IMG/VR virus record: IMGVR_UViG_3300046412_000198 | Span: 1 to 21,756 of that record | Length of the DNA stretch: 21,756 nucleotides | DNA from: a virus | Strand: one strand, 5' to 3' | In this document: in pieces, positions 9,899-21,677 of the stretch | Layout: every line of letters begins with the position of its first letter | How positions within the stretch are numbered: position 1 is the first letter of the stretch | Program-made: the position numbers and the translations under genes | The notes under the pieces: model-generated | Seen by the model: the letters and a program-made list of their open reading frames with translations, nothing else | Told to the model about the DNA's origin: nothing | Database searches by the model: none

Positions 9899-10034
9899 AG
9901 CCGCACAGAACATGGCTGACACCACAAACAGGCCGCACATTGTTACCTATGATCTCCAGGTTAAGTCAGCAATTTATGCCAAGCACAGTCATTGGGTAGA
10001 AATGGTGCAGCCATGCCGCAAGCACAAAATTTAA
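9828..10034 (+). CDS. Hypothetical protein, 68 aa
   Basis: A GTG start at 9828 is supported by GGAGG (9814-9818) 9 nt upstream. The product begins MSDDMNGRKSGISPHHRQIL and continues SAIEAAQNMADT; it is mostly helical with a His/Lys-rich end. The reading frame is separate from the zinc-ribbon gene it overlaps by 71 nt and from the methyltransferase start at 10013, which it overlaps by 22 nt. No family recognised. Its support is the ribosome-binding site and the packing. Confidence 0.5.
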   Translation: MSDDMNGRKSGISPHHRQILSAIEAAQNMADTTNRPHIVTYDLQVKSAIYAKHSHWVEMVQPCRKHKI

Positions 10035-10852
10035 CTCCCTGCCCCGCAGACCCGCCCATCACTCCTAGCGGTGAAGGGGCAGCGGAGTTTCTTACCGTTC
10101 TTGATACGTTCTCTGGCATCGGCGGCTTTTCGCTGGGGCTAGAGCGTACAGGGCGATTTAAGACAGTGGCGTTCTGCGAGATGGATGCTTACTGCCAAGA
10201 GGTGCTAAAGCAACATTGGAATGGGATACCTATTTATGACTACATCGAAGACGTTACAGCAGGAAGACTTCTTCAAGATGGAATTGGAAGAGTCGATGTC
10301 ATCACCGGAGGCTTCCCGTGTCAGGATGTCAGTACGGCAGGGAGTATGTGGTTCACACCAGAAGGAACAAACGCTCCCCGATCCGGACTCTGGGCAGAGC
10401 TTGCCCGTCTTATTGGCGAAATTAGACCCCGATACGCAATCATGGAAAACGTCCCAAATCTCCTTGCTGGAGATGGAGGGCGATGGTTCGGAAGGATACT
10501 CAGTGATCTGGCCGAAATCGGGTTCGATGCGGAGTGGCATTGCATACCAGCTTCCGGCATTGGCGCTCCCCATCGCCGCGAGCGAGTCTGGATTATTGCC
10601 TACCCCAGCAGCGAGGGATTGGAAGGGGGCGGTGAAGCCAGAGACGATAGCAGCCAAGGGGAGAAACGCAGCTACCAACTCTTTACCGGATGCAGTGGAG
10701 TACCGTGGACAGCGTGGGAGGCTGAACCCAGCGTGGACAGAGTGGTTAATGGGCTACCCCGTAGGGTGGACAGAATTAAAGCAGTCGGTAACGCGATTGT
10801 CCCGCAAATCGCGGAAGAGTTAGGGAGGGCTATTTGTGCGGTGGATAAGTAA
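10013..10852 (+). CDS. DNA (cytosine-5) methyltransferase, 279 aa
   Basis: Canonical motifs are present in order: I DTFSGIGGFSLGLE (31-44), IV GGFPCQDVS with catalytic Cys at 103 (99-107), VI MENVPNL (144-150), VIII PHRRERVWI (186-194), and X VGNAIVPQIAEELGRAI (258-274). The segment between VIII and IX is only about 50-60 residues, so the target-recognition domain is short. The enzyme would methylate C5 of cytosine in a specific short site, protecting phage DNA from host restriction. The ATG at 10013 has a poor ribosome-binding site; a TTG at 9992 is an alternative. A long open frame in the +1 frame is nested within it (next entry). The target site is unknown. Confidence 0.88.
   Translation: MPQAQNLTPCPADPPITPSGEGAAEFLTVLDTFSGIGGFSLGLERTGRFKTVAFCEMDAYCQEVLKQHWNGIPIYDYIEDVTAGRLLQDGIGRVDVITGGFPCQDVSTAGSMWFTPEGTNAPRSGLWAELARLIGEIRPRYAIMENVPNLLAGDGGRWFGRILSDLAEIGFDAEWHCIPASGIGAPHRRERVWIIAYPSSEGLEGGGEARDDSSQGEKRSYQLFTGCSGVPWTAWEAEPSVDRVVNGLPRRVDRIKAVGNAIVPQIAEELGRAICAVDK
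10236..10823 (+). CDS. Overlapping +1-frame ORF inside the methyltransferase gene, 195 aa
   Basis: This frame is wholly inside the methyltransferase gene, shifted by +1, and open for 195 codons from ATG 10236 (or 200 from ATG 10221). Its product carries the motifs of a phage protein family I recall as separately annotated beside dcm genes: DPDTQSWKTSQISLL (64-78), YSVIWPKSGSMRSGIAYQLP (88-107), SGLLPTPAARDWKG (118-131) and GRLNPAWTEWLMGYPVGWTEL (161-181). SWKTSQ is read from the same bases as MENVP of the methyltransferase (10440 onward), and SGLLPTP from those of RVWIIAY. It could be a true overprinted gene, or a frame that the conserved MTase codons keep open. Start-site support is weak (GGGA, 10223-10226). 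Confidence 0.45.
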   Translation: MTTSKTLQQEDFFKMELEESMSSPEASRVRMSVRQGVCGSHQKEQTLPDPDSGQSLPVLLAKLDPDTQSWKTSQISLLEMEGDGSEGYSVIWPKSGSMRSGIAYQLPALALPIAASESGLLPTPAARDWKGAVKPETIAAKGRNAATNSLPDAVEYRGQRGRLNPAWTEWLMGYPVGWTELKQSVTRLSRKSRKS

Positions 10853-11007: not shown

Positions 11008-12570
11008 CTAATTCCAATACCGTCTGAACAAGACATCAAAGAAAGATTCCCTGATGGTCTTCTCTTCTTCGTCTTCCTCACGCGGATCTGTTACCTGACT
11101 ACCATCAGGGATGTAATTCTCTTCCTCTCCAAAATACTGCTGGCCCACTCTGCGCCCCCTACCTATGGGGCTGGCGGTTTCGTTAAAGACAGCATCAAAG
11201 TAGTCGCGAGTGTTGTATGCAGCGCGGCCATATCTTGTCTTACCTGTAACCGCAGCGGGTATATATTCCGCTCCCAGCCTAACAATACCGCCATTCAAAG
11301 GACTTGATTCCGATCTGACTTCTGTAAGCATAGCCTCTTCAGCAGTGCGTCTTCCTGTTTCTGCATCAGAGTACCGCCTGTTAGCTCCAGCTATTTCATC
11401 ATTGATGTCATTTATTTCATCACGCAAAGTATCAGCTACTGCACGCCTGCCCGCTGCGACAGGCACATCATCGACACTTGGCTCTGTCTGGAACGGAATG
11501 TTTTTCTCCCACTCTTGACGCATTTCTCTTGCAGAAGAGATCGTAAGGACATCGCTATCTAAGTCTTCCAACATGTCAATGGCTTGATCAATCTGCTTGA
11601 GCGTTGAGTTAGCCGCATCATCTGGGCCAAGGCCGCTGAGCAATTCATCACGACGAATTCTCAAAGACTCAATAAGGTTATAGACAGGTATATCTCTTCC
11701 TGCTTTCTCTGCCGCCTCTATTGCCGCATTAAGCTCGTTGGCCGCGACTTCTTTATCAAACTTAATCTTTCTTACCCCAGCATCCGTCGGCAAATAACCT
11801 CTGTCAGCGAGATTGGCAGTAAATTCATTTGACTTATCAATGTCGCCTTTAACATCTGCGGGCTGTCGGGGATAGACAATCTGACCGAATCTTTCACCTG
11901 GAGTGCTCCAAGGGTTGAGAGCCGTATGGAGTGGTCTTCCGACTGCATTCAAAGTCAGCGCATACGGATCGAGAGCTTCCATTAGCGTGCCAGCCTGCTC
12001 CAGCGTCTCCCCTGCCTGTCGGCCTGTTCTTGCAAGCACGCCAGTGCCAGTACCAGCCGCCCTAGTTAAGCCTCTGCCCGCAGCAATTGGCCCCATGCCA
12101 ACAGTGCCAACATCTGCGGCAACGCCAAACGGGTCGTTATATGCGGTATCTTTAATTGCGTCTACGCTTCCATATCGCGCGCCAAGGTAGTCGCCTGCCG
12201 CATCTAGTGCGCCATCCCACATGTATGGCGCTTCCCCCTCTGGCACTTCATTCCCTACAAGCCTATTCTCGTTAAAAAGGCCATCTACATTTGATTGGAA
12301 CCAGCGCGCTCCGTCATTTTTAAAGTCGCTGTACATGCCCATCATGTTAGGAATCATCTGCACCATATCTTTAGCAAAGCCAACGCCTGACTTGCCAAAG
12401 TTGTCCATGAATGTGCCTTCCTCAAAGATGGTTTCAACGTCAGAGCTAGGCTTACGCGCTTGCGTGGCTTCGTAGTCAGCAACCATTTGCTGTGCTTGAG
12501 CGACATTCTCCGGCTTTACTGTTCCGTCAGCCAGCTTTTGCTTTAACCGCTCATATTGCGATTTATTCAT
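11008..12570 (-). CDS. Putative internal virion / ejection protein, 520 aa
   Basis: The ATG at 12570 is chosen because it overlaps the upstream stop (ATGAATAA) and follows GAGGAAA; the frame could also open at 12585. The N-terminal 40 residues are a Lys/Gln-rich helix. Then come GKSGVGFAKDMVQMIPNMMG and a hydrophobic Gly/Ala segment, NDPFGVAADVGTVGMGPIAA, typical of membrane-active regions in podovirus internal proteins. The middle (about 230-400) is a long alpha-helical, acidic coiled-coil region. The C-terminus is charged (DPREEDEEEKTIRESFFDVL). It is the last gene of the late operon. The role is inferred from context; no defined family is recognised. Confidence 0.6.
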   Translation of the reverse strand: MNKSQYERLKQKLADGTVKPENVAQAQQMVADYEATQARKPSSDVETIFEEGTFMDNFGKSGVGFAKDMVQMIPNMMGMYSDFKNDGARWFQSNVDGLFNENRLVGNEVPEGEAPYMWDGALDAAGDYLGARYGSVDAIKDTAYNDPFGVAADVGTVGMGPIAAGRGLTRAAGTGTGVLARTGRQAGETLEQAGTLMEALDPYALTLNAVGRPLHTALNPWSTPGERFGQIVYPRQPADVKGDIDKSNEFTANLADRGYLPTDAGVRKIKFDKEVAANELNAAIEAAEKAGRDIPVYNLIESLRIRRDELLSGLGPDDAANSTLKQIDQAIDMLEDLDSDVLTISSAREMRQEWEKNIPFQTEPSVDDVPVAAGRRAVADTLRDEINDINDEIAGANRRYSDAETGRRTAEEAMLTEVRSESSPLNGGIVRLGAEYIPAAVTGKTRYGRAAYNTRDYFDAVFNETASPIGRGRRVGQQYFGEEENYIPDGSQVTDPREEDEEEKTIRESFFDVLFRRYWN

Positions 12571-14083
12571 CAGGAATTTCCTCATCCTCTAAAAGCTCTG
12601 CCGCTGTCTTGAAGTTATAAATGTTTCCGTAAGTTTTCTTAAAGCTATCTGACTCTCTCTGCGGGCTTCTGATATTTGGATTTTCGTTAAGGCGGTCTAT
12701 TCTTCTCCTAAATTTATCTCTTGATAGAACAAGACTTCTTTCTCTTTCTGCAAGGAAAGATTCAAGAATGCCCATAGCAAACTCTGGATCTTGGCTTATG
12801 TTTGCAAACATCAACTCCAGTTTCTTTATGTCTGTATCAGAAACAGGGACAAGAGTTGTTTGGCTCAAAGCCTTTATTAGCTCTTGCCCAGACAAGCCTT
12901 GCAGCTTACCCATCTGCCTATCACCAATGCCAAATGTTTTAGCAATTGCGCCTTGGACAAAGCCTGAATCAACCTCTTGGCCTGCAAGCATATTCATTGC
13001 TTCCCTTCCGCGAGCTATTGATGATTGAGTCTCGCTAAAGCCATCTGCAATTTCTTCAAAATCTTGCTCAAATCTTTGCAGATCGGTTACTGCCGCTTCG
13101 CCAGACTTAGAACCATATGAGCTTGCTTGCTGAAATGCCTGCTCAAATTCTCGGGCTTGCTCTGGACTTTCAATTTCTTGAACGACATTTCCAGCAAGGT
13201 CAAAAACTTTGATACCGCCCCCTTCCATGTCTTCAAACGTCAAAGCGCCCGCTGCCATTTGCGATGCTAGATCGGGGTCATCTATACCTATGCTCTTTAA
13301 ATAATCAGTGGTATTTTTGACTTTGTTCATATAGTCAGTGCGGAAAATGTCAAAATTTGAGCTTGCTTTAAACTCATCCCAAGTTGTTTCTGAAGGTATG
13401 TCTTCATTTTGCTTCATTGTTATATAGGTGTTATATGCCTGACTTGTTGAGCCTCTAGTTCCATAGCTTTTGCTGTCAAGAACCTCACCAGCATTTGGAT
13501 TAAGACTGTAACTGCCATCAGAGTTTCGGATAAATTTGGCAGCAGTTGTAATCATTGTATTGCCGGACATTTTTGTTTGGGGCTTAGTACCCATTTCCAG
13601 CATCATGTTGTATTCATCGGCAGTCTTTTGCTTATCAATAAGACCAAGCTGCGCGCCTCTATAAACATTTGCAAACTGAGGCGTGCCAATAGAACTCATG
13701 GCCATGCCAATTGCGCCTAATCGGTCACTATTGCTAACGCCTCTCATGCGCTCATATTTGTTTGGTTCCGGCCCAGCGGAGGAGGCAGGCACAGCCACAG
13801 CAGGCGGCTGGCTTTCAGCAGGCGCGGCAGGATTGATGCCAGTAGGCGCGGTACTGCCTGCGCCCATCATGGCGTCAATGGCCTTTATCGCATCAGCAGT
13901 GCCTTGCGTGTCAAACTTGGTGGGCAAGTATCGCTCAAGGTCTTCATCCGGCGGAGCGTTTACCATCATCCGCCCGCGCTTTGGCTTCATGCCAATCTGT
14001 TCAGCTAACTTGTCTTCAAGAAGAGAGGAATAATCGAACAATTCCCAATCTTGCCCAAATCCGTAACCGTCAAACACGCTCAT
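12563..14083 (-). CDS. Putative internal virion protein, 506 aa
   Basis: The product begins MSVFDGYGFGQDWELFDYSS. An Ala/Pro-rich linker (residues about 75-105, APAESQPPAVAVPASSAGPE) separates it from a domain starting SNSDRLGAIGMAMSSIGTPQ. This is the helical segment commonly seen in phage proteins with predicted ejection roles. The second half is acidic and helical (EQAREFEQAFQQASSYGSKS), and the last 90 residues are Arg/Glu-rich helices (AERERSLVLSRDKFRRRIDR). It sits 2 bp after the Gly-rich 419-residue protein in the same operon and overlaps the next gene by 8 nt. Structural role inferred; no firm family. Confidence 0.55.
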   Translation of the reverse strand: MSVFDGYGFGQDWELFDYSSLLEDKLAEQIGMKPKRGRMMVNAPPDEDLERYLPTKFDTQGTADAIKAIDAMMGAGSTAPTGINPAAPAESQPPAVAVPASSAGPEPNKYERMRGVSNSDRLGAIGMAMSSIGTPQFANVYRGAQLGLIDKQKTADEYNMMLEMGTKPQTKMSGNTMITTAAKFIRNSDGSYSLNPNAGEVLDSKSYGTRGSTSQAYNTYITMKQNEDIPSETTWDEFKASSNFDIFRTDYMNKVKNTTDYLKSIGIDDPDLASQMAAGALTFEDMEGGGIKVFDLAGNVVQEIESPEQAREFEQAFQQASSYGSKSGEAAVTDLQRFEQDFEEIADGFSETQSSIARGREAMNMLAGQEVDSGFVQGAIAKTFGIGDRQMGKLQGLSGQELIKALSQTTLVPVSDTDIKKLELMFANISQDPEFAMGILESFLAERERSLVLSRDKFRRRIDRLNENPNIRSPQRESDSFKKTYGNIYNFKTAAELLEDEEIPDE

Positions 14084-14085
14084 GA

Positions 14086-15348
14086 TTATGCTCCGCCCAT
14101 CCAGCCCATTCCGCCGCCCATTCCGCCACCACCACCACTAGATGTTGGCGCAGTCGGCTTATTATCTTGATAAAGATCATAGAACATGCCGCCAAGGGCC
14201 ATGCCGCCACCAAGCTGAGAAAGAAGGCTGGGATTATTTGTAACTGTTGAGCCGCCGCTGATTCCGTTTGCCGCTTGGAATCCTCCAAGATTCATCTGCC
14301 CTGGTTGGCCCACATTGTAGATATTTGCTTGATTCCATCTGTCGAGTGCTTGTTGATCGTAGTTGTATAAATAATCACCAGCACCCATTGATGTAGCAAT
14401 GTTTCCAATCGCCGCATCGTTAGCATTGCTAAACGTCACGCCAGCGTTTCCGTACTGCGTGCCAGCAGCGCCAAGCATTGATCCGCTGTTTCCGTACATT
14501 GATGCTGCTGCACCAACTAGCGAGTTGTATTTGGAAGCAGCCGCCGCTGTAGCTGCATTCGCTCGACTAGCCGCAGCAGCAATCTGTGCATTGACGTTAG
14601 ATGTCTGCGCTTGAAGCGTACCTTGCCCTGCGCCCATTGCATTTGCGTCTGCAGTACCGGAAGCCCACTGCTGCATCTGAGCGCCATAGTCAGTAATCAT
14701 TTGATTAGTCATGGCGTCAAGAAGCGATGCTCCCTGACCCACTTTAGAATTAGCACCACCAATCATCTGAGAGCCAATCTTTATTCCCGGTAAATTAGAG
14801 AACAGATTGCCGGTCTTAGTTTTGTTTGAAAATGAATCAAATGCGTTTTGCGCAGAACCAATTAAGTTTCCATACGATTGATCGTAAGTGTCTTGGTCAT
14901 ACTCAAACTTTAGATCAGAGCTAAAGTTTCCTCCTCCGCCGCCACCGCCGTATCCGCCGCCGCCAGCGCCTCCGCCCGTTTTGCCCAACTGACCAAGCAA
15001 CCACCCGCCAGAACCTAGTGCGCCCGCCTCACCGATCTGGGCGAGACTGTTTGCCGCACCCATCTGTCCAAGACCAGCGGCATTCATCATGGCTACTTGA
15101 TCAGCGCCCTGCCCGTTTGCATAATTTCCTGCTGCGGCCAATGCTTCCATCTGAAATGGATTCATGCCAGCAGTCAAATTATCTAAGTTGTACTGTGGCG
15201 TAGGAGAATTTTGGTAGGCATTGCTGTACTGAGAGATCATATCTTGAACAAATGGATCCATCTCAGTTTTAGTGGTTGACTTTCCTCCACCTAAAACTTT
15301 AGTTGCTACAGCCCCTGCAACAGCACTGCCAATTGCGCCCATAGTCAT
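14086..15348 (-). CDS. Gly/Ala/Asn-rich putative DNA-ejection or internal virion protein, 420 aa
   Basis: GGAGG lies 7 nt ahead of the ATG at 15348, which overlaps the upstream stop (ATGA). The N-terminus (MGAIGSAVAGAVATKVLGGG) is a Gly/Ala hydrophobic segment like those of phage ejection proteins. Residues about 45-140 are Asn/Gln/Met-rich with a glycine block (GGGAGGGGYGGGGGGGN). Residues about 245-300 are a long Ala-rich helix (AQIAAAASRANAATAAAASK). The C-terminus is again Gly/Met-rich (GGGGGMGGGMGWMGGA). Composition and position match podovirus tail/internal proteins needed for genome delivery, but I cannot name a family. Confidence 0.55.
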   Translation of the reverse strand: MTMGAIGSAVAGAVATKVLGGGKSTTKTEMDPFVQDMISQYSNAYQNSPTPQYNLDNLTAGMNPFQMEALAAAGNYANGQGADQVAMMNAAGLGQMGAANSLAQIGEAGALGSGGWLLGQLGKTGGGAGGGGYGGGGGGGNFSSDLKFEYDQDTYDQSYGNLIGSAQNAFDSFSNKTKTGNLFSNLPGIKIGSQMIGGANSKVGQGASLLDAMTNQMITDYGAQMQQWASGTADANAMGAGQGTLQAQTSNVNAQIAAAASRANAATAAAASKYNSLVGAAASMYGNSGSMLGAAGTQYGNAGVTFSNANDAAIGNIATSMGAGDYLYNYDQQALDRWNQANIYNVGQPGQMNLGGFQAANGISGGSTVTNNPSLLSQLGGGMALGGMFYDLYQDNKPTAPTSSGGGGGMGGGMGWMGGA

Positions 15349-15821
15349 TGCATAACCTCCAATTTATCCCAAGGATAAGTAATCTCTGAATGATCTTTTG
15401 CCACAATCAAATCCTCAATTTCATCTATTGAATTGGCCTCTTCAGCGCCCGTGATAGCGGCCCATAAAACTTCAGTCTCTGCATACAAAGCTATTTTTGA
15501 ACCGTATGGAGCCTCACAAATATATGGCGCATCAATAACCTGATTGCCTGCTTCACTTGTAATTCTTACCCTTCCGCTGATAATTATCCAAAGCCTTCTT
15601 TTCTTCCAGAGCTTTGAGATAATTGTATGGCCTTCTGGTATTTTTAAAACGCGCGTATAAGCACCGCCAATTAAATGCTCAGTCAATCCATTGGCATTGA
15701 CTTCATCCATGTCGCCACGTTCAGATCCTTCAAGATCCTTTAACGCTTTTTCTAAAGACTCAATAGAAGACCGCATTGCCAAGCGGCCCTCTTTGTCATT
15801 TTGTGCAATTAGCTCGTTCAT
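15345..15821 (-). CDS. Cupin-like protein, 158 aa
   Basis: The first 45 residues are helical (LEKALKDLEGSERGD). From about residue 46 the sequence has the spacing of a small cupin beta barrel: YTRVLKIPEGHTIISKLWKK, then RRLWIIISGRVRITSEAG, then APYICEAPYGSKIALYAETE and VLWAAITG. The G-(x)5-H metal-ligand pattern of classical cupins is incomplete (EGHTIISK, then WIIISGRV), so metal binding is doubtful. Cupin-like proteins occur in phage virion clusters, but their role there is not established. It is flanked on both sides by stop-start overlaps. Confidence 0.55.
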   Translation of the reverse strand: MNELIAQNDKEGRLAMRSSIESLEKALKDLEGSERGDMDEVNANGLTEHLIGGAYTRVLKIPEGHTIISKLWKKRRLWIIISGRVRITSEAGNQVIDAPYICEAPYGSKIALYAETEVLWAAITGAEEANSIDEIEDLIVAKDHSEITYPWDKLEVMQ

Positions 15822-16417
15822 CGAACGCCAAACATACCCTTCATGTTCATCATGGGTGCAGCCGCTGGTGGTCGCGGAGCAGTGAAATTGCTAAACCAAT
15901 TATTCATGCTTCCCATGCCGTTACCAAATCCCATCTGCTGACCGCCAAGGCCAAAGTCAATGGGCTTTGGTACAGCAGGAGCCATGCCGCCACCAAATGA
16001 AGGCAAGGGTCGATTAAACAAATCGCTAATTGGCGGCATTGGCTGGCCTCTTGGAGATGGGTTGTCTCCTCCTCCGCCAGCAGGCGTATTTGGCGTGGCT
16101 GGGATAGGCGGCAATCCACAAATCGCCCTAACAATTGGATTTACAGGCTCTGCTGTGCCAACTTGGGGCATTGGGCCATCAGCTGGTGCAGGCATCGGGG
16201 TTGGCATATTAGGCCCGCCACTAGGCATAACCATTGACCCGACAACAGGAGCGGGCTGACCCATACCCATACCAGGGGGCATAGCTTGCTGAGTATTGGG
16301 GCCACCTGACGGCATTGCCATTGTTTGAGGCATTGGAGAAACTTGGCCAAATAAACCACCATTGCCGCCTGCGTTAAAGTTTCCGGTAACTGTCGGCGCT
16401 TTCATTGCTCCAAACAT
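15818..16417 (-). CDS. Pro/Gly/Met-rich low-complexity protein, 199 aa
   Basis: ATG at 16417 overlaps the upstream TGA (TGATG); AGAGGG lies about 9 nt ahead. The protein consists largely of Pro, Gly, Met, Ala and Asn, with a short internal repeat: MAMPSGGPNTQQAMPPG and MVMPSGGPNMPTPMP. A short ordered segment with two Pro-flanked hydrophobic residues (NPIVRAICGLPPIP) lies near the middle. Such a chain is expected to be disordered or extended, as in some phage linker or collar proteins. No family recognised, and function is unknown. Its place in the operon implies a virion or assembly role. Confidence 0.55.
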   Translation of the reverse strand: MFGAMKAPTVTGNFNAGGNGGLFGQVSPMPQTMAMPSGGPNTQQAMPPGMGMGQPAPVVGSMVMPSGGPNMPTPMPAPADGPMPQVGTAEPVNPIVRAICGLPPIPATPNTPAGGGGDNPSPRGQPMPPISDLFNRPLPSFGGGMAPAVPKPIDFGLGGQQMGFGNGMGSMNNWFSNFTAPRPPAAAPMMNMKGMFGVR

Positions 16418-17124
16418 CACTTCATCCCTCTCATGATTAAATCAAGCATCCCTTGATCTACGCCGTTAAAAATACCACCGTTATTTACAACAGGGAGCTT
16501 GGGGGGAGGAATGTCTTTTTTCTTTGCCTCCGAGGGATCCCAATAATTGTTCATAAAGTTAATTGCAGAAGAGACTCGATTTTTGTTTTCTTGATTAAGT
16601 CCACTTCTGCCCTCTCCCCAGCCGCGAACATCTCCGCTAACCCAGCCTTTATTGCCGCCCGTTCCGGACTCTTGGAACCAACGGCCAAACCAATCTAAAT
16701 CTTTTCCGCTTAAAGCATTTTGCTGCCTCATCCAATTAAGCCAATCCGAGTTGGTGACAATTGATTCATCTCCCCAAGGCACTCCGCCGCTGGGGTAATT
16801 ACCCTGTACTGGCCCCGCCAATTGAGATAGCGCCCCACGATCTTTAAAGTCATCCAAAGTTTGAATGGCTGACATATCTTCAATAGGTTTAAAGCCTGAT
16901 GGCGCGCCATTAAAATGCTCATACATTTGAGCAGCAGATGCATTTAAACCATTGCCATACTGACCCACACCTTCCACGGTTCTGAACGGGGTTCTGGTGT
17001 CGTTAGCAAATGGGCCGCTATATGGCTTGCCAGAAGCAGTAAACGTGCCTGCGCCACCCTGCTGTCCACCCATATTTGCCATTATCTGAGCAATTGCTGG
17101 ATTGTTAAAAATATCAGGAAACAT
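16417..17124 (-). CDS. Hypothetical virion-operon protein, 235 aa
   Basis: The start is placed at the ATG at 17124, which overlaps the previous stop (TGATG) after GGAGAG. The first 25 residues are Met/Gln/Gly-rich and hydrophobic (MFPDIFNNPAIAQIMANMGG). The middle contains many Trp and Gly (WLNWMRQQNALSGKDLDWFG, then RWFQESGTGGNKGWVSGDVRGW), and the end has a Lys/Pro-rich stretch (KKKDIPPPKLPVV). The domain GVGQYGNGLNASAAQMYEHF to about residue 205 looks globular. I recognise no family. A tail or adaptor role is possible. Confidence 0.5.
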   Translation of the reverse strand: MFPDIFNNPAIAQIMANMGGQQGGAGTFTASGKPYSGPFANDTRTPFRTVEGVGQYGNGLNASAAQMYEHFNGAPSGFKPIEDMSAIQTLDDFKDRGALSQLAGPVQGNYPSGGVPWGDESIVTNSDWLNWMRQQNALSGKDLDWFGRWFQESGTGGNKGWVSGDVRGWGEGRSGLNQENKNRVSSAINFMNNYWDPSEAKKKDIPPPKLPVVNNGGIFNGVDQGMLDLIMRGMK

Positions 17125-18080
17125 CACGCTCTCCAGATTTGAAAGTTACGGAAATAAATATTTTGATATGAGGTAGTGTAAGTAGATCCATTTATTTGAA
17201 AGGCTAACCAGATATCGTTATATCTCTCATCAACGGTAAACTCACCAGAGAAGCTCTGCCAGCCAGAGGTTTGGCGAACACTTTGGCTGTGATACTCCTC
17301 CATGTCATCAGGATAGCTTCCAGTGTAATACCCCTCTGGCCAACCCCTGATCTGAAATGAGCCGCTTGATGTTCTCCACCCGCCATCTGCTCTCTTAAAA
17401 ATCTCTACTGACCATTCTAGCCGCGTACCCGCAGGAATTCGCCCTATGTATGCGACTGCGTAAGTGGCCAGAACGCGAAAGTTTTGATAGTAATAAGGAC
17501 GAGATGAGCTATACAGCCGAAAGTATTCACCGTCATCGTCCTCCCTGACCTCAATCCCACGGTAACCGTAGCCGTTGTCCTCTTCTGAGTTTTCCCAAGG
17601 CTGGGGATCACTGAAACCTTCATTCCACGCATTAAGTGGATTCATGGGCAATATCTTTCCACGATAAACATCGTAGTTGTGGCCCCACAGCGCACTATAA
17701 AAATCACTTGGTTCGTTCGTAGGGGGTTCATGGCGGAAGATAGGGTTATCCCTGTCATCTAGCTCGCCAGTAGCAAAGACCTTGCGGCAGATCAGAAGAT
17801 CCTCATCGTCCATAGCGATGTCTTTTGTTTTAAGCCTTACACCGCCAATTTGCTTATAGCTAATCCTTCCATTTTTTGGGCATGGCTCTAGCTCTCGGTA
17901 CTCACCAATCACCTCGCTGGCGTCTTCATATCCATCCACATCTATACGTTCACGCAGCTTTGCCGCCGTCTGATACTGATAATGTAGCCACTCAAGAGTC
18001 GGCTCTGGTTCTTGACTCTCAACATCCGGCGGGCTTTCTAACTCTTGTATTCCCCCTGGGGGGATTGCGTCATCTATCAT
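17124..18080 (-). CDS. Putative receptor-binding/decorating protein with C-terminal beta-sandwich, 318 aa
   Basis: The start is taken at the ATG at 18080, forming an ATGA overlap with the preceding stop; an in-frame ATG at 18089 is equally possible. The N-terminal half (residues 1-165) is acidic and has no recognisable fold. Residues about 185-318 read as a beta sandwich: TYAVAYIGRIPAGTRLEWSV, then SGWQSFSGEFTV, DIWLAFQINGS and YFRNFQIWRA. The pattern W-x-x-F-S-G-x-F-T-V ... I-W-L-A-F-x-I-x-G ... Y-F-x-N-F-x-I is like galactose-binding/carbohydrate-binding modules. A sugar-binding virion role is inferred. Position after the lipoprotein and fibre genes agrees. Confidence 0.5.
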   Translation of the reverse strand: MIDDAIPPGGIQELESPPDVESQEPEPTLEWLHYQYQTAAKLRERIDVDGYEDASEVIGEYRELEPCPKNGRISYKQIGGVRLKTKDIAMDDEDLLICRKVFATGELDDRDNPIFRHEPPTNEPSDFYSALWGHNYDVYRGKILPMNPLNAWNEGFSDPQPWENSEEDNGYGYRGIEVREDDDGEYFRLYSSSRPYYYQNFRVLATYAVAYIGRIPAGTRLEWSVEIFKRADGGWRTSSGSFQIRGWPEGYYTGSYPDDMEEYHSQSVRQTSGWQSFSGEFTVDERYNDIWLAFQINGSTYTTSYQNIYFRNFQIWRA

Positions 18081-18919
18081 GGGGCGCATGCCGTCAAGTC
18101 TGGGAACAGGTCACACAAGTTATCGTCAGTGACAGTCACGATGCCGCCTGCTGTGTAAATGTCTACAGCGCCACCGTTCAGCACGATGTCTGCAATCTGG
18201 CCATCCTCCATCGCGCCAAGGTTTGTGATGTAGCTTGAATTAAGGCTGTCATCATCGATGGTGTCACCAGATGTGTTGTACGCATCTGAGTTAGTGTCGC
18301 CAGATGTGGTTGTGGTATTTGTTTCAGTGTTAGTGGTTGTGGTTGTCACTGATTGATCAATAACGCCATCATCTTGAACGGCATAATAATCACCGCCCAC
18401 ATCCATTCCACCAGAGCCAACAGCGGCCACGCCAAGGTCAGCAACACTCTGCACAATGTTGGAATCTTGAAGAGCATCATTGATCTGCACTCGGGCAGCA
18501 TTATCTGAGGCGTTCTTGCTAACGTCAGCCTGTATCGCCGCCACGCCAACTCCCGCAAGCAACGTAGAGACAGGGGTTGCCAGTACACGCACATACTCCA
18601 GAGCTTCATTTCTCTGCTGCTGTAGAGTCACAATCGGCGCATCGTCATCCTCATCATCAGCGCCCTGCACACCAATTACAGCCAAAGCCACAGTCACCGC
18701 TGGGCAATGCTCTTTGTTGGCTTCACAAACACGGGCCAAAGAATCAAACAACTCTTTGTTTGATACCGCCTCTGCCTGCTTTTCTTGCATGCGAGCTTCA
18801 CGCTGAATCGCAACCATTTTTATTTGGTCAGCGCCATGCTGTGCCAGCCTGTCGTTTCCTTTTTGGGTCGCGCAACCAGTTACGGTTAATAACGCAATTA
18901 CAGCAGCTATCTCTTTCAT
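18077..18919 (-). CDS. Predicted phage lipoprotein, 280 aa
   Basis: The N-terminus MKEIAAVIALLTVTGCATQ has a short signal peptide with lipobox V-T-G-C; Cys16 would be lipidated and cleaved before it. The +2 residue is Ala, favouring the outer membrane. Residues 20-60 are charged and helical (KMVAIQREARMQEKQAEAVS). Three further Cys (65, 72 and a C-terminal pair) lie outside the signal. A Thr/Ser/Asp-rich linker sits near 195-225 (VTTTTTNTETNTTTTSGDTN). Phage lipoproteins include outer spanin subunits and superinfection-exclusion proteins, but neither is supported by more than the lipobox here. AGGG lies 8 nt before the ATG. Confidence 0.7.
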   Translation of the reverse strand: MKEIAAVIALLTVTGCATQKGNDRLAQHGADQIKMVAIQREARMQEKQAEAVSNKELFDSLARVCEANKEHCPAVTVALAVIGVQGADDEDDDAPIVTLQQQRNEALEYVRVLATPVSTLLAGVGVAAIQADVSKNASDNAARVQINDALQDSNIVQSVADLGVAAVGSGGMDVGGDYYAVQDDGVIDQSVTTTTTNTETNTTTTSGDTNSDAYNTSGDTIDDDSLNSSYITNLGAMEDGQIADIVLNGGAVDIYTAGGIVTVTDDNLCDLFPDLTACAP

Positions 18920-19532: not shown

Positions 19533-20587
19533 ACGTCATGTCCAATTTTAATGATGCCATTTTGTCCAGCCTTACCACCTTCGCCTGTTCTACCAGAGCT
19601 TGTTGCCCCACCACCACCGCCGCCACTGCCCTGCTTTGATGCCGCTGTAGCACTGCCATTACCGCCTACGCATTTACCGCCATTGCCGCCGCCATAGTTA
19701 CCGCCAGCACCGCCTGCAACGCTGCCTACAGAAGCACCACCACCACCAGACGCCCAGCCTCCAAAATATCCATACGTTGAACTGTTGCCGCCCTTGCCTC
19801 CAGACTTTGAGGAGTCAGAGTTACCAGGAGAGCCCGGAAATCCGACACCTGTCATACCGCCGCCGCCGCCACCGCCGCCAGTATTTCCTTCGCCGCCGTC
19901 TCTGCCTGCTGATCCACTACCCCCAGCATTGCCAGATCCACTAAACCCGTTGTACTTACCCGCACTACCGCCACCGCAAGCACCTGTAGAGCCGAATGCG
20001 TTTTGGTTATAAGCACCGCCACCACCGCCGCCTGCACAAGATGTTTTGCCTACAGAAGTGCCGTTCACCGTAGTGCTGCCACCGTTTTTGCCTTGATATC
20101 CGCTACCCACAGCGATGCCGCCAGTACCACATTTACCGCAGTACTTGAATCCGGCTTGCGGGATTTTGGTGGCATAGAAAACCTCTCCCGAACCACCACC
20201 GCCACCAGATCGGGAGCCATTTGATTCTGTTTGGTGCTGCGGGCCACCCCCGCCTCCAGATGCGCCAGCGCCTACATACAGCATTGATACTGTACTATCG
20301 TATGAGCCAGTAGCCGCCTTGGTGATTGTCACGCAGCCTTCGGCTGTCGTACTTGTTATCGTCCCAATCTTGCGCCCATTACTGGTAGTAAATGACCCGC
20401 CGCTAATTGTTGACTGATTGGGCGCAGAGGCTGACTTACCGCGAAAATCACTGTAACTGATTGGCTTGCTGCCTTTGCTTATTAGAGAAGCGCCATTAGC
20501 CCAAAGCGCAAACCGAGCCGAATTACCTCTACTCCACTCAGAGTTGATCATGGAGGCAGAAACTTTCCCAGTATTAGGAATCGACAC
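19529..20587 (-). CDS. Polyglycine tail adhesin / fibre tip protein, 352 aa
   Basis: GTG at 20587 is the start, after GGAGG with a 6-nt gap; it overlaps the previous fibre gene by 14 nt. The N-terminal 55 residues (MSIPNTGKVSASMINSEWSR) resemble an attachment domain. Residues about 60-110 are beta-strand-like. From about residue 108 to 345 the protein is dominated by glycine-rich segments (for example GASGGGGGPQHQ, GDGGEGNTGGGG-like blocks), with Asn, Ser and four spaced Cys (KYCGKCGTGG). This composition matches the glycine-rich adhesins (phage S16/T2 Gp38 type) that form polyglycine type II helix sandwiches and bind the host receptor. That role is inferred from architecture. Confidence 0.7.
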   Translation of the reverse strand: MSIPNTGKVSASMINSEWSRGNSARFALWANGASLISKGSKPISYSDFRGKSASAPNQSTISGGSFTTSNGRKIGTITSTTAEGCVTITKAATGSYDSTVSMLYVGAGASGGGGGPQHQTESNGSRSGGGGGSGEVFYATKIPQAGFKYCGKCGTGGIAVGSGYQGKNGGSTTVNGTSVGKTSCAGGGGGGAYNQNAFGSTGACGGGSAGKYNGFSGSGNAGGSGSAGRDGGEGNTGGGGGGGGMTGVGFPGSPGNSDSSKSGGKGGNSSTYGYFGGWASGGGGASVGSVAGGAGGNYGGGNGGKCVGGNGSATAASKQGSGGGGGGATSSGRTGEGGKAGQNGIIKIGHDV

Positions 20588-21677
20588 GCATTGCCTCCAA
20601 CTCTGCTTTCAGCGACTTAACCTCTTCAATCAAGTAGCCCACTAGTCCGTTGTAATTGACAGACTTGTGGCCGTCTTCGTGATCGTGAATCAAATGCGGC
20701 AACAACTTTTCTACTTCTTGCGCTATCACGCCGCTACCAATGCGACCATCTTCTTTCCACGTAAACTCCACGCCGCGCAGATTATCTAAAATGCCTAACG
20801 GCGCATTAACTATGTTCTCCTTCAGCTTTTCATCAGAGTAAGCGGTTATATCTCCAGTGGCAGTAAACGAGCCAGTGTAGGAGCCGCTCATCTTGATCTG
20901 GTTGTTTGCTATGCTGATGCCGTTACCCGCGCTGTTGGGCGCGTAGTTGTGGGTATGGGCGCTAGTCACATAACCCGCACCGTTAGTTAGCTGGCTGTTG
21001 TTAGTCGGTATATCAGACGCCTTCGCGTATCCTGCGCCTGCGTGATTCCCCCAGCCGTGAGCCACATCCCAATTGCTAATCTGGGTGTCTGTGATCCGTG
21101 GATCGTTGCCACCGCCGCCAACAGAAAGATTATCAATCTGCCCCTGCAACGCCGCATCGCCAGCTATACGGTCATCAGTTTCTTGTGCTAGGTCAGCCTT
21201 AATTTGGCTGTCATCATAACCACCACCGCCTGCACCGATGATGCTGTTGCCGTCTGCGTCTCGGAAGTCAGCAGCTTGCACATAAGAGAAATCAGTCAGC
21301 CACGGCAGATTGCCATCGCGGTCTGAGACACCCCTGATCTCTGATTGACCATGCAATTCCATGTCGCCGTCACGACCAATTGAGACAGTGCCTTTGTCGC
21401 CCTTGGCGTACAGGAACGAGCCTCCAGGTGAGTCAGGATCCATGTTGGTTCCGCTGTAACCAAGGCTGCCGTTGAACGGAAAATTAGGGTCAGATGAGTG
21501 ATCCCATGTGAGCCTAAAAACACCCTCTTCAACATCGTTTTGCTCTGTCTTGCTGACGTAGCCAGACAGGTCAATATCACCGCCTCCGCCAGAGCCTTCA
21601 CCAGCCCAGCCCCATTTGCCATTGCCTAGGTCAACCCATCCATGCTGGGAGGGGTCATTTACAATTCGTTCACTCAT
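20574..21677 (-). CDS. Tail fibre with S74-type intramolecular chaperone, 367 aa
   Basis: GGAGG lies 6 nt ahead of the ATG at 21677. The N-terminal 30 residues are Gly-rich and fibre-like. Residues about 120-275 include repeats typical of phage fibre shafts (ISNWDVAHGWGNHAGAGYAK, then NSQLTNGAGYVTSAHTHNYA). Residues 281-367 are a peptidase S74/endosialidase-type chaperone: SDEKLKENI, LDNLRGVEFTWKEDGRI, then IAQEVEKLLPHLI and NYNGLVGYLIEEVKSLKAEL. In this family the domain trimerises the fibre and then cleaves itself off in front of a Ser; S281 of AYSDE is the likely site. The chaperone keeps the expected length of about 90 residues. It is likely the first receptor-facing fibre gene of the operon. 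Confidence 0.82.
   Translation of the reverse strand: MSERIVNDPSQHGWVDLGNGKWGWAGEGSGGGGDIDLSGYVSKTEQNDVEEGVFRLTWDHSSDPNFPFNGSLGYSGTNMDPDSPGGSFLYAKGDKGTVSIGRDGDMELHGQSEIRGVSDRDGNLPWLTDFSYVQAADFRDADGNSIIGAGGGGYDDSQIKADLAQETDDRIAGDAALQGQIDNLSVGGGGNDPRITDTQISNWDVAHGWGNHAGAGYAKASDIPTNNSQLTNGAGYVTSAHTHNYAPNSAGNGISIANNQIKMSGSYTGSFTATGDITAYSDEKLKENIVNAPLGILDNLRGVEFTWKEDGRIGSGVIAQEVEKLLPHLIHDHEDGHKSVNYNGLVGYLIEEVKSLKAELEAMRVDS

Follow-up and report, generated by a model that had tools for sequence, protein, structure and literature searches.

A gene nested in the +1 frame of a viral cytosine-5 DNA methyltransferase gene probably encodes the small subunit of the enzyme

We report that the cytosine-5 (m5C) DNA methyltransferase (MTase) locus at 9992–10852 of an IMG/VR virus contig (21,756 bases, all of which are referred to here as the window) holds a second gene in its +1 frame. 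This nested gene is almost certainly a real overlapping gene, and its product, beta, is judged from sequence comparison to be the small subunit of a two-polypeptide m5C MTase of the M.EcoHK31I kind, with a probability of roughly 0.87. Under this proposal, a single stretch of DNA would specify one two-polypeptide MTase. The frame 0 product, alpha, would provide the catalytic domain with motifs I–VIII plus X, and beta would have its own internal translation start, ∼25 codons ahead of motif IV. The N-terminal part of beta would be overprinted on alpha motifs IV–VIII, and its C-terminal part (the PTP segment and LNPxWxEWLMGxPxGWT) would give motif IX, completing the small domain in trans, and probably also much of the target-recognition region. 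We infer that alpha and beta bind one another, that both are needed for methylation, and that the enzyme protects the phage DNA.

The features of the locus are collected in Table 1. In a Pfam search, alpha matched PF00145 over residues 35–211 only (E 5.7e-45), and it also matched phrog_363 (E 2.1e-69). Motifs I, IV (PCQ), VI (ENV), and VIII, which mark PF00145 membership, are all present in the alpha ORF, and both the alpha alignment and the match to M.HhaI place a variable stretch between motifs I–VIII and motif X. No motif IX was recognisable in the alpha chain, in which the Pfam match stops at residue 211. Upstream of the MTase gene lies a replication/recombination set (primase/helicase, Sak4-like annealing protein, SSB, Cas4-type exonuclease, and helicase), and no neighbour of the alpha/beta gene was recognised as a restriction gene. 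The alpha/beta overlap is also crossed by a 157-codon minus-strand ORF (10205–10678). Elsewhere in the window, four minus-strand ORFs of 321–525 aa (11008–12585, 12563–14083, 14086–15348, and 17124–18089) have no PHROG match; this block within 11008–18089 is unusually unknown and precedes the tail-fibre-like gene.

Table 1. Coordinates of the alpha and beta reading frames, their motifs, and one further gene of the window
Feature	Position	Strand	Remarks
alpha, m5C DNA methyltransferase large subunit	9992–10852	+	start TTG 9992 or first ATG 10013
alpha motif I, DTFSGIGG (AdoMet binding)	10103–10126	+	
alpha motif IV, GGFPCQDV (catalytic Cys)	10307–10330	+	aligns with M.HhaI
alpha motif VI, AIMENVP	10436–10456	+	
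alpha motif VIII, HRRERVWIIAYP	10571–10606	+	
alpha motif X, VGNAIVPQ	10784–10807	+	from the alpha alignment
beta, nested +1 ORF, 195 aa, probable motif IX/target-recognition subunit	10236–10823	+	phrog_1008, permutation, conserved ATG
alternative upstream ATG of beta, 5 codons more	10221–10235	+	absent from the closest relative, L178
beta SWKTSQ	10440–10457	+	+1 over alpha motif VI
beta PTP motif, SGLLPTPAARDWKG, from SGLLPTPAARD	10587–10628	+	over alpha motif VIII at its start
beta motif IX, GRLNPAWTEWLMGYPVGWTEL	10716–10778	+	motif IX-like block of the beta alignment
tail-fibre-like gene	20574–21677		near the far end of the contig

The initial annotation of the window had described a 195-codon +1 frame wholly inside the MTase gene, with SWKTSQ as the +1 reading of MENVP, SGLLPTPAARD as the +1 reading of a second alpha motif, and a further motif in the last third; all of these are borne out, the second alpha motif being motif VIII and the motif of the last third GRLNPAWTEWLMGYPVGWTEL (Table 1). 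It had also named a family of SWKTSQ/PTP/LNP proteins and asked whether that family was over-annotated. The family is real: beta matches phrog_1008 (E 2e-27), as do 56 of 56 aligned betas, and phrog_1008 is beta. The beta alignment reads ...DPxTSSWRTSQxCL...TWPRSGxMRNGIAYQLPPL...SGLLPTPxA...GxLNPxWVEWLMGFPxGWT, and its last block, directly before the position of motif X, reads like motif IX by both sequence and placement. No beta family was found in Pfam or NCBIfam, a sequence search of the PDB returned only chance matches to glycolipid transfer protein (E 0.5 or worse), and none of these searches gave a known homologue of the N-terminal half. Folded alone from a 61-row alignment, beta gave a model of low confidence (pLDDT 58.8) except around the motif IX helix. 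Begun at 10221, beta would have 200 aa; a start at 10236 is more likely, because L178, the closest relative (a Rhodobacteraceae MAG), has that ATG and lacks the one at 10221. The site aligned to 10236 is ATG in most relatives, and an ATG together with a Shine-Dalgarno core was found at this site in 51 loci compared with 15.4±3.2 after permutation (maximum 23 in 200 permutations); the Shine-Dalgarno sequence of the window itself is weak.

That the +1 frame is open beyond chance was seen both in the window and among its relatives. In the window gene alone, a +1 open run of 204 codons (stop to stop) was reached in 0.1% of 20,000 synonymous permutations that keep the alpha amino acids and codon usage. 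Because relatives fetched with the +1 protein could form a biased set, the MTase protein was used as a second query, which added 80 relatives, and 56 of the 113 dereplicated loci are MTase-selected. Over these 113 loci, we counted 112 stops in the +1 frame compared with 618±17 after synonymous-codon permutation, a five-fold depletion where frequent stops would have spoken against a gene; the +2 frame behaved as the null (1205 compared with 1222±26). The complete ORFs of the MTase-selected set likewise have their long open frame in +1, not +2. Ordinary chromosomal MTases served as the negative control and gave null results over motifs IV–VIII (64 stops in +1 compared with 72.5±5.0, and 48 compared with 49.0±4.5).

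The pattern of substitution points to selection on both frames. Between the window and L178, third positions of alpha differ in 26 of the 81 codons that precede the beta frame and in 17 of the 183 inside it, and 176 of 196 beta codons are identical (stop included). Synonymous positions are suppressed, with the suppression confined to the overlap, for which constraint on the MTase is not by itself a sufficient explanation. Across 45 pairs, the changes that are silent in alpha and beta alike reach 3–4 times the neutral expectation. In the same pairs, most change before motif VIII falls at third alpha positions, an alpha-dominant pattern, and most change after motif VIII falls at first alpha positions, equivalent to the third positions of beta, a pattern that leans to beta. 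The handover of the dominant constraint from alpha to beta occurs at about 10587–10628, and from motif VIII to motif X constraint acts on both frames, with a lean towards beta. This distribution suggests that beta was overprinted on an older alpha reading upstream of motif VIII, and that downstream the roles lean the opposite way. Of the two possibilities raised at the outset, over-annotation or an overprinted gene with its own role, the second holds in that the frame is selected beyond the MTase constraint, and the role is most likely to provide the motif IX that alpha lacks, as the small polypeptide of M.EcoHK31I does.

Alignment of phage and cellular loci (including bacteria and one archaeon) placed the SWKTSQ/PTP/LNP protein in the +1 frame of an m5C MTase, with the phase unchanged, in 255 of 257 loci, and no beta without an MTase was found among these 257. 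In a genome scan with 12 rows of the beta alignment as query, the best 80 of 291 loci came from Pseudomonadota, Bacillota, Actinomycetota, Bacteroidota, Planctomycetota, Cyanobacteria, and an archaeal MAG; the +1 relation held throughout, frame-disrupted cases excepted, and many of these loci may be prophages. The E. coli collection, searched for EcoHK31I-like loci, held four prophage-like copies only, and the one that was inspected carries a pseudogene flag from PGAP. One Roseovarius MAG chromosome has five copies of one alpha/beta locus (L239–L241, L243, and L244). In two cellular loci (L203 3482–4491 and L231 707–1506), alpha and beta both switch frame mid-gene, as in broken copies or sequencing errors, and in Mycobacterium phage Jinglebell (L087 1272–1977) an indel moves both frames together, with two opposite-strand ORFs annotated there instead.

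Annotation of these loci is divided. Among 16 phage records, alpha was annotated in 11, beta in 4, the opposite strand in 1, and both frames in none. The four records with beta only, from which the catalytic MTase is missing, are XFactor gp67 (L085 1366–2094), SOVA965 (L088 1384–1884), Rctr197k gp201 (L093 1426–2106), and Mwe-JY08 (L084 392–652), and one of the four betas bears the name 'DNA-cytosine methyltransferase'. A literature search returned no paper that describes a gene nested within a phage m5C MTase gene. The overlapping frames of one gut-phage paper had to do with a reverse transcriptase.

The subunit role is supported because the beta-type C terminus occurs in two sets of natural MTase fusions. 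In mycobacteriophages such as OldBen (L267, L347–L379), alpha motifs I–VIII, PTP repeats, PEWMMGWPAGWV, and motif X follow one another in one chain and a single frame, and other mycobacteriophage relatives have the same parts in two overlapping ORFs. OldBen gp68 (L267 1483–3114) and L347–L379 together include fused, split, and frame-swapped arrangements in which the number of PTP repeats varies. One such single chain, L365, is matched by phrog_363 (alpha) over 1–357 and by phrog_1008 (beta) over 177–361 (E 6.2e-65). Its predicted model has a pLDDT of 71.7, with 85–96 in the motif IX region, and aligns end to end with M.HhaI 12–327 (Z 22.6, rmsd 3.3, 246 residues).

The second set comprises MTases from 27 Vibrio/Alteromonas plasmid records, four of which were read (L264 1537–2781; L446–L448). 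Their order is permuted, with motifs I–VIII, then X, and then a beta-like domain with motif IX at the C terminus that reads PSRGxMxxGxxYTG...LLSTxIAKDGNNNF...GGLxPxFxExFMGYP. The four have no +1 ORF (6, 6, 7, and 12 stops compared with 7.2, 6.2, 4.8, and 11.0). By hhalign, the domain aligned with beta at a probability of 96.6% (E 5.5e-10), and the 121 aligned columns take in both SWKTSQ and motif IX. The link for the N-terminal half of beta rests on this profile-profile result, because a single-sequence profile search with L264 gave a good match in the motif IX stretch only. The beta sequence is thus conserved where no overlap exists, which we regard as the strongest argument for counting it as a domain of a protein and a component of the enzyme. 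The initial annotation had counted a lack of independent standalone family members as evidence against its proposal; these C-terminal domains are members that overlap nothing, and a free-standing separate gene was not found.

A further form is found in Firmicutes phages, whose single-chain MTases (L268–L346; L258, L259, and L261) have motif IX in frame (RKLTPRECWRLQGFP) and also a +1 ORF. This ORF of ∼140 aa spans motifs IV–VIII only, lacks motif IX, begins at a conserved ATG behind GGAG, and ends with LSDILEENVPEKYFLS. It contains 0 stops compared with 213±11 over motifs IV–VIII, as against 533 compared with 424±13 downstream, and the third-position difference is 0.329 ahead of the overlap, 0.164 inside it, and 0.375 beyond it. 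Because ordinary MTases have a segment like the end of this nested ORF in their main frame after motif VIII, the Firmicutes ORF also holds a piece that belongs to the main chain in ordinary enzymes. We suggest that it may be a new variant (beta-prime), and the N-terminal half of beta may have a further role, since MTases with their own motif IX keep the +1 ORF. In a tree of motifs I–VIII, drawn from a sample without the four Vibrio/Alteromonas sequences, 67 nested, fused, and Firmicutes MTases stand apart from 26 ordinary ones with a support of 0.95, a split compatible with one origin of these forms. We lean slightly towards a history in which a large phage/mobile-element clade of m5C MTases gained the nested +1 gene once, kept its phase in phages of many bacterial phyla and in archaea, and remodelled it into nested, beta-prime, mycobacteriophage-fused, and Vibrio/Alteromonas-escaped forms; here the Firmicutes nested protein would have a role beyond the M.EcoHK31I precedent, because its enzyme already has motif IX.

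Three other explanations were weighed against the small-subunit reading. The +1 ORF could be a by-product of MTase motifs and codon usage, with the SWKTSQ family over-annotated, and part of the similarity is indeed such a shadow: the +1 frames of the ordinary single-chain MTases L258, L259, L261, and L262 give weak scores with the beta profile (E 1e-8 to 1e-17). The initial annotation was right to suspect shadows of MTase motifs to that extent, but they are not the whole signal. The stop deficit is confined to +1 even though the permutation holds the MTase protein and codon usage constant, it is absent from ordinary chromosomal MTases, and the silent-site suppression is limited to the overlap. 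With the permutation test and the conservation of beta in the non-overlapping Vibrio/Alteromonas relatives, we consider a chance by-product already refuted and give it next to no credence.

Beta might have another job, as a regulator, an anti-restriction protein, or a host-takeover factor, and merely travel with the MTase; its N-terminal half without a known homologue would suit such a role, as would the persistence of a related +1 ORF where the Firmicutes-phage main chain already has motif IX. We think this improbable, given that single-chain MTases contain the beta C terminus in two different arrangements and that no beta was found apart from an MTase. M.EcoHK31I, moreover, needs two proteins according to the title of Lee 1995 as cited in PMC3404938. 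A programmed +1 frameshift that joins alpha motifs I–VIII to the beta C terminus into a canonical single chain is, at best, equally improbable. The beta C terminus is what follows motif VIII in a canonical chain, and in some mycobacteriophages two overlapping ORFs hold the parts; however, a shift at motif VIII does not need the ∼110 preceding codons of the +1 frame that are kept open, the internal ATG with a Shine-Dalgarno sequence is conserved, and the shifted product would lack motif X, since X remains in frame 0.

Long genes nested on the same strand are considered rare in prokaryotes, and the arrangement of M.EcoHK31I, in which the beta gene is nested in the alpha gene in another frame, has been treated as an oddity; to our knowledge, nested subunits of this kind are known from one or two laboratory enzymes. 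M.EcoHK31I consists of two polypeptides, a large one with motifs I–VIII and X and a small one with motif IX (PMC3404938). The window locus resembles M.EcoHK31I and M.EaeI (YGGCCR m5C MTases) in this split, the comparison being with the published description rather than the sequence, and it shares the nested small-subunit gene of M.EcoHK31I (10236–10823 in 9992–10852). M.EcoHK31I and M.EaeI are part of a restriction-modification system, whereas no restriction gene was recognised next to the window gene. Either subunit could recognise the DNA, because the TRD of M.EcoHK31I is assigned to the large subunit (PMC3404938) whereas the constraint at the window locus favours beta. M.AquI is an m5C MTase whose two polypeptides are divided after motif VIII, and its small subunit, with motifs IX and X (PMC3404938), is not described as nested; here, motif X is in alpha, and beta, which ends at 10823, is in a different frame from it, so that the window gene is not of the M.AquI type. 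The mycobacteriophage relatives L361, L367, and L368 do look AquI-like. The single-chain enzymes M.HhaI and M.HaeIII combine TRD and motif IX in one chain, and ordinary chromosomal enzymes of the single-chain kind lack the +1 ORF signal.

Overall, an EcoHK31I-like arrangement appears to be common and old, extending over more than 250 phage, bacterial, and archaeal sequences. Nesting accounts for the disagreement among gene callers at alpha/beta loci and for the label 'DNA methyltransferase' on proteins that have no catalytic domain. The PHROG label of phrog_1008 is a case in point, suggesting a whole enzyme although the family is the +1-frame partner. It also carries a warning that where alpha is scored alone, the small domain is missed. 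Because naturally split MTases have already been used for targeted methylation (PMC3439449), the diverse natural alpha/beta pairs could be useful.
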